64,000 nucleotides of DNA. Source: Priestia megaterium (GTDB lineage Bacteria > Bacillota > Bacilli > Bacillales > Bacillaceae_H). The DNA is taken from assembly GCF_023824195.1 (NCBI RefSeq), contig NZ_CP085442.1, positions 4,254,001-4,318,000 on the forward strand, in the 5' to 3' direction. This document shows, one piece after another, positions 2,772 to 7,035 of the stretch (position 1 is its first letter; each line of letters starts with the position of its first letter). Below the pieces are notes generated by a model. It worked only from the letters and a program-made list of their open reading frames with translations. It ran no database searches and had not been told where the DNA came from. A program made the position numbers and the translations under genes.

Positions 2772-2830
2772 GCCTGTCACTCCTTCAGTTGTAAACGCAC
2801 CTTTTTTTTATTTTAACGCAGTGTAAAACA

Positions 2831-2864
2831 AAAAAATCTCCTCATTAATGATAGGAGATTTTTT
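2831..2864 (-). terminator. gudB terminator
   Basis: A 12-bp stem (2831-2842 with 2853-2864) rich in A/T at its base, followed on the minus strand by a T-run. It lies about 30 nt after the gudB stop. Confidence 0.85.
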
Positions 2865-2895
2865 CTATTTACGCAATTGTTCTGCTGTTCTGTTT

Positions 2896-4176
2896 TTAAA
2901 TCCAGCCTCTGAAACGAGAGCCTTCTGCCATTTTTCTTACGCCTATCATATAAGCAGCTAGACGCATGTCGACTTTTCGAGTTGTAGAGGTTTCGTAGAT
3001 GTTATTAAATGATTTAACCATTACTTTTTCAAGCTTTTCTTCTACTTCTTCTTCCGTCCAATAATAACCTTGGTTATTTTGCACCCATTCAAAATAAGAG
3101 ACTGTTACACCGCCGGCGCTTGCCAAAACGTCTGGAACTAATAAAATTCCTCTTTCTGACAAGATGCGCGTTGCTTCAAGAGTTGTTGGTCCATTTGCTG
3201 CTTCTACAACAATACTCGCTTGAATGTTATGGGCGTTTTCTTCTGTAATTTGATTTTCAATCGCAGCTGGAACTAGGATGTCACAGTCAAGTTCAAGCAG
3301 CTCTTTATTGCTGATTGTATTATTGAATAATTTCGTTACTGTGCCAAAGCTATCGCGTCGATCTAATAAATAATCAATGTCTAAGCCGTTAGGATCATGC
3401 AGCGCTCCGTACGCATCGGATATCCCTACAATTTTAGCGCCAGCGTCGTGCATGAACTTAGCTAAAAAGCTTCCTGCATTTCCAAACCCTTGTACTACTA
3501 CCCGTGCGCCTTGTAATTCAATGCCTCGTTTTTTCGCTGCTTCACGAATACAAATAGTTACTCCTTTTGCAGTCGCTGTTTCACGGCCGTGCGAACCACC
3601 CAAGACAAGGGGCTTTCCAGTAATAAAGCCCGGTGAGTTAAATTCATCAATCCGGCTGTATTCATCCATCATCCAAGCCATAATTTGTGAATTTGTAAAC
3701 ACATCCGGCGCTGGAATATCCTTTGTTGGTCCAACAATTTGGCTAATCGCACGAACATATCCGCGGCTTAAACGCTCTAATTCTCCAAAAGACATATTTC
3801 GAGGATCACAAACAATTCCACCTTTTCCTCCACCGTAAGGAAGGTCAACGATTCCACATTTTAAACTCATCCATATAGATAGAGCTTTTACTTCTTTTTC
3901 AGTTACGTTTGGGTGAAAACGAATTCCACCTTTCGTAGGACCAACTGCATCGTTATGCTGCGCTCGGTGACCTGTAAAAATCTTAACTGATCCGTCATCC
4001 ATACGAACAGGAATTTTTACTGTCATCATTCGTAATGGCTCTTTTAATAGTTCATACACTTCATCAGGATAGCCTAGTTTTTCTAACGCTTTATGTATCA
4101 CTGTTTGTGTAGATTTTAAAACATCATGCTTCTCTTCTTGACTATTTTTACTGTCTTGCATCTTGTCGGCTACCAT
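2896..4176 (-). CDS. gudB: NAD-dependent glutamate dehydrogenase (active GudB form)
   Basis: Oxidatively deaminates glutamate to 2-oxoglutarate and ammonia. The protein has 426 residues, the GudB/RocG length. It shows the substrate-binding block GPTKGGIRFHP, the catalytic lysine region PYGGGKGGI, and a Rossmann motif VVVQGFGNAGS. The ATG has TAGGAGGT 7 nt upstream. Laboratory B. subtilis 168 carries a 9-bp duplication (VKAVKA) that inactivates GudB. Here the same place reads TEKEVKALS, without duplication, so the enzyme should be active. A TTGCAA-16-TATACT promoter and a degenerate cre-like site lie upstream. Confidence 0.93.
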   Translation of the reverse strand: MVADKMQDSKNSQEEKHDVLKSTQTVIHKALEKLGYPDEVYELLKEPLRMMTVKIPVRMDDGSVKIFTGHRAQHNDAVGPTKGGIRFHPNVTEKEVKALSIWMSLKCGIVDLPYGGGKGGIVCDPRNMSFGELERLSRGYVRAISQIVGPTKDIPAPDVFTNSQIMAWMMDEYSRIDEFNSPGFITGKPLVLGGSHGRETATAKGVTICIREAAKKRGIELQGARVVVQGFGNAGSFLAKFMHDAGAKIVGISDAYGALHDPNGLDIDYLLDRRDSFGTVTKLFNNTISNKELLELDCDILVPAAIENQITEENAHNIQASIVVEAANGPTTLEATRILSERGILLVPDVLASAGGVTVSYFEWVQNNQGYYWTEEEVEEKLEKVMVKSFNNIYETSTTRKVDMRLAAYMIGVRKMAEGSRFRGWI

Positions 4177-4518: not shown

Positions 4519-5121
4519 TTAAGAAAAGACAGAGTTAATATACTCCAAAGCTCTCTTTTCTACTAACATTTTTCCATATTCATTTACGCGGTGCTTTGTA
4601 ATTGTAGAGGGATTTCCATACTCCGCCAAAACCGCAATCATATTCCCAACTTCAGCTGGTGACAGCATGTGATAATCCAGCAGCACGTAAAAACGTTTTT
4701 CAAATGAATAGAGCACGCTATCCGTATCGTAAAAGTTTGACAGGCGTTTGGTCAGCTGAATGACATCTTCAAATGAATCAAACTCAAAAAACATGTCTTC
4801 GCTTTCATCTAGCATGACCTGCATTTCAATGAAGTCCTCGAACTCGTCTTCATCGAACTCACCGTAGCTGGTTTCTTCTTCATACTGCTTTGTCACAAAT
4901 ACAACCATTCCCTGTGCTTGAAGTGAAAAAACTTCTACCGAAAGAGAATTTGTAGGTTCAAAGTTCAGTTCTTGAGAAGCTTGCTCTATCATCTCACGAA
5001 AGAGCTGTTTTACTTTGAATGTATCTGTCCATAGATCTTCTTTTGTTAACCCTCTTTCTTTTAAATCATCGTAGGTCAAAAAAACTTTTAGCTTATTATA
5101 GTTTAATCGTTCAAGCCTCAT
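4519..5121 (-). CDS. mecB: MecA-family ClpC adaptor (MecB/YpbH)
   Basis: Adaptor protein that delivers substrates to the ClpC/ClpP protease. It has 200 residues. The N-terminal substrate-binding module starts MRLERLNYNK and continues LTYDDLKERGLTKEDLW. A very acidic linker around residues 85-115 follows, then a C-terminal ClpC-binding module ending in HRVNEYGKMLVEKRA. The context (gudB on one side, ypbG-ypbF-ypbD-recS on the other) matches ypbH rather than the competence gene mecA. ATG start with GGGGAGGG upstream. Confidence 0.9.
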   Translation of the reverse strand: MRLERLNYNKLKVFLTYDDLKERGLTKEDLWTDTFKVKQLFREMIEQASQELNFEPTNSLSVEVFSLQAQGMVVFVTKQYEEETSYGEFDEDEFEDFIEMQVMLDESEDMFFEFDSFEDVIQLTKRLSNFYDTDSVLYSFEKRFYVLLDYHMLSPAEVGNMIAVLAEYGNPSTITKHRVNEYGKMLVEKRALEYINSVFS

Positions 5122-5248: not shown

Positions 5249-6160
5249 TCAATCAATTTCTGCTAATTTTTTTGTTAGCCAGCTGTTCCACTCTTCTTTT
5301 GTATTTCCTAAAATAAACGGCTGGGCCTCGCCTTTTCTTTTGCTATCTAAACCATCAAACACATAACCGCCTAATCCTACTTTGAGATGCGGGAACTTCT
5401 TTATCATTTGGTTCGTCAAATTTAGTGTTTTCTCGGCATTTTCCATCATTGTGCATGACATAAATAAAAACGTTGGGTCTACTTCTTTAACAATTAACTC
5501 AACATCTTTATCTTCAATGCTGCTTCCTAAATAAATAACCTCAAACCCTTTACGGCGTAAAAATAGCGTAAAGACTAGGAGTCCCACTTCATGTGTCTCA
5601 TTAGGCCCGCATACAGCAATCGCTTTAGGCAATAAGCCATTTGAAGGCAGCGAATAAAAAATCATGCTGATACGCGTTTTTAATACTTGAGTCGTATAAT
5701 GCTCATGGGCACTTGTAATTTGCCCTTTTTCCCACATATCTCCAACCGTCACGAGTAGAGAACCCAAAATATCAATAACCACTTTTTCTACCGAATACAG
5801 GCTAAAAGCATGATTAATTAAATCCTGTGCTTTTCCTTCTTCAAAAGATAAAAGCATCGTTAACAGCTCATCCCTAATTTTTTGAGGGGAATCTACTTCT
5901 CCTTCTTCTTCAAACGTTCCTACTGTACTACTTTCCGTTTCTAATAACGAAACCGCTTGACTTATGGTAAAACCTCCGCTCACTTTTTCCGTGAGCCATT
6001 TTAATTTCCGCAAATCTTCCTCTGTATATAACCGATGCCCCGATTCATTGCGGACAGGATTTAAAATTTGATAACGTCGTTCCCATGCACGCAAAGTTCC
6101 CGGCTGGATTCCGACCATATTTGAGATGGCTTTAATATTATACTTCCCTTCGTGAGCCAT
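5249..6160 (-). CDS. MerR-family regulator with cobalamin-binding domain (LitR/CarH type)
   Basis: 303-residue DNA-binding protein. Residues 7-75 form a MerR winged helix with the LRAWERRY signature of the CarA/CarH/LitR branch. Residues about 95-170 form the helical cap with W143-x9-E153-H154, the W-x9-EH motif that packs on adenosylcobalamin in CarH. Residues 178-300 form a Rossmann B12 domain with E188-T-H190-E-V-G193 (the ExHxxG lower-ligand motif) and a GG pair at 264-265. By family knowledge such proteins repress DNA in the dark and release it when light breaks the Co-C bond. No carotenoid or photolyase gene is next to it. Its own promoter holds a palindrome in the spacer, which suggests autoregulation. 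The photoreceptor role is inferred. Confidence 0.82.
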   Translation of the reverse strand: MAHEGKYNIKAISNMVGIQPGTLRAWERRYQILNPVRNESGHRLYTEEDLRKLKWLTEKVSGGFTISQAVSLLETESSTVGTFEEEGEVDSPQKIRDELLTMLLSFEEGKAQDLINHAFSLYSVEKVVIDILGSLLVTVGDMWEKGQITSAHEHYTTQVLKTRISMIFYSLPSNGLLPKAIAVCGPNETHEVGLLVFTLFLRRKGFEVIYLGSSIEDKDVELIVKEVDPTFLFMSCTMMENAEKTLNLTNQMIKKFPHLKVGLGGYVFDGLDSKRKGEAQPFILGNTKEEWNSWLTKKLAEID

Positions 6161-6204
6161 ACGTAACCTCCAACTACTCTTCGTGAACTGTATCTATTAA
6201 TTGA

Positions 6205-6233
6205 ATTATAGGATAAGTTATCCTGTGTGTAAA
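6205..6233 (-). promoter_or_regulatory. Promoter with spacer palindrome upstream of the B12/MerR regulator
   Basis: On the minus strand TTTACA (6228-6233), a 17-bp spacer and TATAAT (6205-6210) lie 45 bp before the start codon. A perfect 15-bp palindrome, AGGATAA-C-TTATCCT (6210-6224), fills the spacer and abuts the -10 box. This is where MerR-family operators usually sit. Confidence 0.65.
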
Positions 6234-6267
6234 ATTTGTATATGCTATGTAAAGAGTTTGTTCAAGG

Positions 6268-7035
6268 CTATTCTTTCCTTTTTAAAGTGATATAATGCGT
6301 TTGGGCTCTAGCTTGTAAACGGAGAGGCAAAGAGGTTGTACCATATCCGTTACTGACAAAAAGAGGAATGTTTCTTTTTTCTTTCAGCCCTCCTAATTCA
6401 TACATACCAAAATTAAATAAGCGTATCTGTCCTCCGTGTGTATGTCCGCTCAAAATTAAATCTACTTTTGATTCTTCATCTACATAATAGATAACATCAG
6501 GATTGTGGCTTAGAAGAATGGTAAGCTGTTCAGGTTCAATGGAAGAAACAGCTCTCTTTAGATTCATCTGACCTTCTGATAAATCATCTACCCCCGCAAA
6601 ATGGCATGTAGTACCATATTTAGAAACGGCAAAGACATGCTCGTTTTTAAGAGCAATAACTCCTTCATCTTTAAGCATCTGCTTCAATTGCATTTGACTT
6701 ACTTCGTAATCATTATTTCCCCACACAAAATAGACGGGTCCTAGCGTTTTAAGCTTTTGAATATTTTGACGAGCCCGCAATAAAGGTACTCCTCCTTCTA
6801 GTAAATCACCGCCTATGATCACAAAATCTACTTCGCCCGGTATTTTTTCCAACAGCTTCGACGAAACTGTTCGCTTATGTATATCCGATATAAAAAACAG
6901 GCGCAAAGGCTGCTGATTTTCAGGAAATGTTGATAAATGAAGCGTTCTTTCTTCGACATATGTACGATGGGCTTCTGAAAACATAAAAATCAGCAAGCCT
7001 ATGCCTAACGCTAAAATAATTAAAAGAATAACCAT
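6268..7035 (-). CDS. ypbG: YpbG-like calcineurin-type metallophosphoesterase, membrane anchored
   Basis: 255 residues with one N-terminal membrane helix (2-20), then a metallophosphoesterase fold with all metal motifs: FFISDIH, GGDLLEGG, WGNND, LLSHNPD and SGHTHGG. The catalytic domain probably faces outward, as in related YkuE/YpbG proteins, but topology is inferred. The substrate is unknown. ATG start with AGAAGGAGAA upstream. It follows a small membrane protein gene by 20 nt and may be co-transcribed with it. Confidence 0.82.
   Translation of the reverse strand: MVILLIILALGIGLLIFMFSEAHRTYVEERTLHLSTFPENQQPLRLFFISDIHKRTVSSKLLEKIPGEVDFVIIGGDLLEGGVPLLRARQNIQKLKTLGPVYFVWGNNDYEVSQMQLKQMLKDEGVIALKNEHVFAVSKYGTTCHFAGVDDLSEGQMNLKRAVSSIEPEQLTILLSHNPDVIYYVDEESKVDLILSGHTHGGQIRLFNFGMYELGGLKEKRNIPLFVSNGYGTTSLPLRLQARAQTHYITLKRKE

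Follow-up and report, generated by a model that had tools for sequence, protein, structure and literature searches.

A CarH/LitR-type B12 regulator of Priestia megaterium and its likely operator repeats at carH, carotenoid and spx-type promoters

The carH locus and its product

The window considered here, a 64,000-nucleotide stretch of Priestia megaterium DNA analysed at its full length, carries on its minus strand a carH/litR gene (5249-6160) with an open reading frame of 303 amino acids. Its downstream neighbour, mecB, encodes a MecA-family adaptor (4519-5121, minus strand), and its upstream neighbour, ypbG, encodes a ypbG-type phosphoesterase (6268-7035, minus strand); both are conserved neighbours of carH, and both gene names are taken over from the original prediction for this DNA. 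Three domains score above the Pfam cut-offs: a MerR DNA-binding domain (residues 7-74; MerR_1), a four-helix B12 domain (residues 96-166; B12-binding_2, PF02607) and a Rossmann-type B12-binding domain (residues 179-269; B12-binding, PF02310). Sequence matching against the PDB aligned Thermus CarH structures with residues 3-239 (E about 2e-22).

The protein had been assigned to the CarH/LitR type on the strength of three motifs, all of which are present, and the Pfam domains and the alignment with Thermus CarH agree with the assignment. The MerR domain holds LRAWERRY, an instance of RxWERRY. The adenosyl-capping motif Wx9EH is represented by W143-x9-E153-H154 (5699-5734, minus strand), in which Glu144 occupies the position of His132 of Thermus thermophilus CarH (TtCarH) and His152 precedes the EH pair; this motif distinguishes CarH from CarA (PMC9304148; here and below, papers are cited for those parts of each that were available). 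The lower axial cobalt ligand motif is E188-T-H190-x2-G193 (5582-5599, minus strand), and the full B12 motif reads ExHx2G-x41-SxT-x26-GG, with S-C-T as SxT, in agreement with the pattern E/DxHx2G-x41-SxT-x22-27-GG, spacings of x41 and x26 being exact. With both halves of the B12 motif in place, the protein is predicted to bind B12, as had been proposed. The NCBIfam CarH equivalog NF052513 matches with 132.7 bits (E 1.5e-38), under its curated cut-off of 400; that cut-off is a naming threshold, and the protein is not assigned to the model.

The counterpart in Priestia aryabhattai B8W22 is 99% identical. No second full-length CarH was detected in the 5.98-Mb genome itself at E 0.001, six weaker matches all being partial, and there is no close plasmid copy: 221 plasmid records match, all with less than 60% identity among the matches listed.

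Conservation and distribution

In every one of the 16 family genomes a single carH is matched with an E value of 1e-20 or lower, and each of ten genus genomes examined has exactly one carH, adjoining mecB and ypbG. At the level of the order, a relative with an E value no higher than 1e-15 occurs in 261 of 397 genomes. The arrangement is conserved among the 58 distinct carH loci that were compared, 54 of which have homologues of both mecB and ypbG on the same strand and the other four one of them; these loci derive from best matches rather than from a random sample (62 were fetched, including four duplicates), and neighbours were judged within the stretch fetched. A homologue from an uncultured Metabacillus (L014, 8001-8897) occupies the same mecB-ypbG locus and is devoid of the Trp, the EH pair, the cobalt-ligand His and the GG; it is probably a B12-blind CarH.

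Genes of the crtI family are found in 148 of the 221 genomes whose carH match is strong (E no higher than 3e-80), in 15 of the 40 with a weaker match only and in 19 of the 136 without any match, kinship being ignored in all three counts. The association of carH with carotenoid genes is strong but not obligatory, as 73 of the 221 genomes keep a strong carH without crtI. An adenosyltransferase family is represented in all 16 family genomes and is common in bacteria generally.

Bacillales also possess a second CarH group. Of 30 loci fetched using Thermus CarH, 14 (L167-L177, L180, L190 and L191) have neither mecB nor ypbG in the stretch fetched, and they coincide with the 14 sequences picked by a Gln before EH, so that AQEH, set against AHEH in the mecB-linked group, contains the selection letter itself. 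In a 50-row tree made of 35 linked sequences, 14 unlinked sequences and TtCarH, one branch with support 98/97 separates the linked from the unlinked proteins. Members of this second group share Wx9EH and the B12 ligand motif and have Glu after the Trp in 11 of 14 cases. At the three of these 14 loci submitted to Pfam (L174, L175 and L177), a neighbouring open reading frame encodes an amine-oxidase-type FAD protein, and no crt genes were recognised among the open reading frames printed for six other second-group loci.

The carH promoter and its candidate operator

The promoter of carH consists of a -35 box TTTACA (6228-6233, minus strand) and a -10 box TATAAT (6205-6210, minus strand) separated by 17 bp, the latter lying 44 bp ahead of the start codon. 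Both boxes and the 17-bp spacing between them are conserved throughout the 16 family genomes. This promoter, together with the perfect 15-bp palindrome reported in its spacer (6210-6224; all 7 of its arm pairs match, with a single base at the centre), was confirmed at 6205-6233.

Four exact TnnACA direct repeats spaced 11 bp apart (TGAACA, TTTACA, TATACA and TACACA) are located at 6226-6264 on the minus strand, mostly just outside the interval to which the original prediction was confined, and the last of them overlaps the -35 box. Published CarH targets are tandem 11-bp repeats of the form nnnnTnnACAn that cover the -35 or the -10 box; Thermus has three repeats, B. megaterium four or else three plus a pseudorepeat (PMC9304148, PMC8156234). 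The repeats at 6226-6264 follow this design and are likely to be the carH operator. Autoregulation, which had been placed at the spacer palindrome, is likely, although by way of the repeats and not of the palindrome.

Among the 16 family genomes, the four-repeat sequence is exact in five; the remaining 11 retain 10 to 13 of the 16 repeat letters, five of them not exceeding shuffled sequences at the 5% level. Beyond the family, two perfect tandem repeats occur within 160 bp upstream of carH at 31 of 59 Bacillales loci (kinship ignored); the corresponding figures are 3 of 59 loci with the reversed motif and 1% of shuffled sequences. The carH -35 box by itself contributes one TnnACA to this count, and the 59 loci, from which the duplicates L008, L009, L012 and L127 as well as TtCarH had been dropped, include five that are near-identical.

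Candidate targets elsewhere in the genome

The original prediction regarded the targets of the regulator as unknown. That view no longer stands, since the CarH repeat pattern precedes a carotenoid operon on the same contig and an spx-type gene. In the 5.98-Mb genome the three-repeat pattern yields 10 matches at 8 sites, against one match for the reversed pattern and about 2 expected from composition, and there are two exact four-repeat sites where 0.01 would be expected. When up to two mismatches are allowed, matches to the four-repeat pattern number 31, against 12 for the reversed one; imperfect sites are consequently weak evidence, and exact sites alone were used. Over the 16 family genomes the three-repeat pattern has 97 matches and the reversed pattern 20, kinship being ignored.

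Three of the eight sites were accepted as CarH sites: the one at the carH promoter, one at the start of the crt operon (genome position 625469) and one upstream of the spx-type gene (4391052). The crt operon comprises two crtI-family genes above the TIGR02734 cut-off and a phytoene/squalene-synthase gene that scores above the PF00494 cut-off and below those of CrtB and HpnD; by eye, the repeats at 625469 cover a TATAAT. The statement that carotenoid genes are missing holds for the mecB-ypbG locus and fails for the genome, which carries crt genes elsewhere. The gene downstream of 4391052 exceeds the NCBIfam Spx cut-off (132.4 against 123). Repeats at the crt promoter occur in 9 of the 16 family genomes, exactly those in which a phytoene synthase is matched at E 1e-68 or below, and three of the 16 (G003, G004 and G009) have one crtI-family gene each and no exact crt-type site. 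Of 13 close spx orthologs, 10 are preceded by the spx site, one more carries it with a single-letter deviation in one repeat, and two have a degenerate version. Judged from these patterns, the crt operon and the spx-type gene are likely targets of the protein. In G004 (L078, 1284-1652), CarH-type repeats also stand before an open reading frame that turns Spx-like and seemingly ends early.

Among the other sites, one possible CarH site (G000:C1:960347-960374) has a TrhA/hlyIII gene on one side and an unnamed open reading frame of 212 amino acids on the other; its three exact repeats are present in 5 of the 16 family genomes. Those at 2732039, inside an open reading frame, and at 5155373, near the contig end, were set aside by judgement. 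Two more, near ppx and ppk (G000:C1:1839942-1839969 and 1842530-1842568), were considered as CarH targets and set aside as PhoP-like repeats of the TTTACA type. As such repeats satisfy the CarH pattern, regulon scans could confuse the two kinds of box.

Residue 144 and the light state

In Thermus CarH, the His that follows the Trp of the capping motif turns into the upper cobalt ligand in light, giving the bis-His state. The protein studied here has Glu144 at this position, as already pointed out in the original prediction, and this proved to be the rule: His after the Trp was seen in none of the 86 Bacillales CarH examined, 83 of which bear the motif, and Glu in 72. Among the 72 linked-type sequences (the window included), the residue is Glu in 61, Gly in three, Met in two, and Arg, Lys and Ala in one each, three being without the motif; among the 14 unlinked-type sequences it is Glu in 11, Ala in two and Ser in one. 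For these counts L008, L009, L012, L127 and TtCarH were dropped, and refetched loci with identical protein were merged. Of the 72 linked-type sequences, 68 have a His directly before EH, corresponding to His152; Gln takes its place in one, and three lack the motif.

Because Glu144 replaces the His, the bis-His state is unavailable through that residue. The His is said to be present in many CarH homologues (PMC9304148) and is for that reason not treated here as defining; other B12 photoreceptors vary at this position (SignatureFinder paper, PMC11796333). In light the B. megaterium CarH tetramer is reported to give a dimer and the Thermus protein a monomer (PMC8156234). The missing His could explain why disassembly ends at the dimer in B. 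megaterium.

Relation to known systems and proposed mechanism

The LitR/CarH protein of B. megaterium QM B1551, studied by Takano (2015) and Fernandez-Zapata (2018), reportedly regulates its own gene and has spx as a target. It comes from the same species group and is very probably the ortholog of the gene in the window, because the ten genus genomes each have a single carH beside mecB and ypbG. In QM B1551, LitR-B12 controls crt genes in a light-dependent manner (PMC6739363, PMC9758184), and its operators, like the one proposed here, consist of four tandem 11-bp repeats over the -35 or the -10 box (PMC9304148). CarH of Thermus thermophilus is more distant: domain order, Wx9EH, the full B12 motif and TnnACA direct repeats are shared, but the two proteins are 28% identical and differ in having His132 and Glu144, the operator has three repeats in Thermus and four here, and Thermus carH adjoins carotenoid genes, whereas carH here does not. 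The system is one already known, a known repressor with a known operator design, and is ordinary in kind.

We consider it most probable (about 0.87) that this Priestia/Bacillus CarH (LitR) is an adenosylcobalamin-bound repressor that in the dark sits on TnnACA repeats and shuts carH, the crt operon and the spx-type gene, and that light releases it. In the dark, CarH would bind adenosylcobalamin and assemble, as a tetramer in the case of the published protein. The assembled form would cover the tandem 11-bp repeats over its own -35 box and thereby shut its own promoter, and like repeats would allow it to shut the crt operon, with its two crtI-family genes and one phytoene-synthase-like gene, as well as the spx-type regulator gene. 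Light would break the Co-C bond, and CarH would leave the DNA. The domains, motifs, promoter repeats and conserved locus come from the sequence, and B12 binding, the tetramer-dimer change and repression from the papers on B. megaterium; the repeats themselves are presumably bound by CarH.

The original prediction envisaged a MerR-type switch acting from the spacer palindrome, which is indeed perfect and placed within the promoter spacer. The palindrome is complete in only 5 of the 16 family genomes, the megaterium-group ones, and in the other 11 the spacer keeps just 1 to 4 of the 7 arm pairs while the promoter is conserved. The genome scan proposed with it found no second copy in 5.98 Mb at 0 or 1 mismatch, and hence it is not common to the crt or spx promoters; moreover, the window contains 10 perfect palindromes with arms of at least 7 bp and a 1-bp gap, this one included. 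Regulators of that type would be expected to show a conserved palindrome or pseudopalindrome that lies in a long spacer and recurs at the targets; MerR activators supply distortion at promoters with spacers of 19-20 bp, and the 17-bp carH spacer needs none of that kind. Being unconserved and single-copy, the palindrome is probably incidental and was rejected as an operator, and with direct repeats as the target of published CarH proteins (PMC9304148), a switch of this type is hardly credible. It could also be argued that a different regulator with 11-bp repeat boxes, such as PhoP, recognises the TnnACA repeats; two of the pattern sites lie by ppx and ppk, where one would expect PhoP to act. 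PhoP boxes resemble TTWACA and recur every 11 bp, and the carH repeats given above, like those at crt and spx, which are mostly TATACA or TGTACA, do not conform to TTWACA. As, in addition, the repeats have promoter positions and the copies at crt occur together with the crt genes, we regard this explanation as very improbable.

A different objection bears on the light response. If photolysis gives no release without the His of the bis-His state, the protein would be a B12-responsive, light-insensitive repressor reporting the level of adenosylcobalamin alone. The absence of this His from all 86 proteins speaks for such a repressor, as does one study in which TtCarH H132A remained mostly tetrameric in light (PMC10442372, PMC11796333), but an earlier study, as told in PMC10442372, saw H132A tetramers disassemble in light. 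Photolysis is also retained in CtMerR, which, like the protein here, lacks His after the Trp and has Arg instead (PMC11796333); CtMerR, like further B12 photoreceptors that lack this His, is however a different protein from the carH product. As the published B. megaterium LitR/CarH, a likely ortholog by single-copy inheritance, does respond to light (PMC9758184, PMC8156234, PMC6739363), light insensitivity is unlikely. Under the preferred light-released repressor, release presumably proceeds without the bis-His state, His being replaced by Glu144. More speculatively, and in our view less likely than not, Bacillales CarH may form a distinct photoreceptor lineage of ancient origin whose place between mecB and ypbG is fixed and in which the bis-His state was swapped for another release chemistry; after photolysis the ligand would be water, Glu144 or the conserved His152 close by. 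Its older role would have been to pass a light/B12 signal to redox stress through spx and itself, carotenoids being attached or lost by lineage. If true, this would account for the B. megaterium protein stopping at dimers in light.

In place of the palindrome switch proposed at first, these results offer an operator of a concrete, published design and put names to the likely targets of the protein. The system is a known one with a mechanistic point worth pursuing, namely release in a lineage without the His. That 83 of 83 motif-bearing Bacillales CarH do without it, most of them having Glu, suggests that the Thermus bis-His light mechanism is not general, and the question of what drives release is relevant to CarH-based optogenetic tools too.

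A separate observation concerns a lone B12-binding protein without a MerR domain, encoded elsewhere in the genome (L002, G000:C1:3142290-3145730; 588-2088 minus and 2821-3441 plus). It has W-x9-EH and EQHFIG, and its gene overlaps a STAS-domain gene. Nearby lies a divergent gene for a PAS protein with the motif GENCRFLQG, which we take to be LOV-like, so that, on motif content, a B12 light input may possibly stand here next to a blue-light sensor that serves the stress response.
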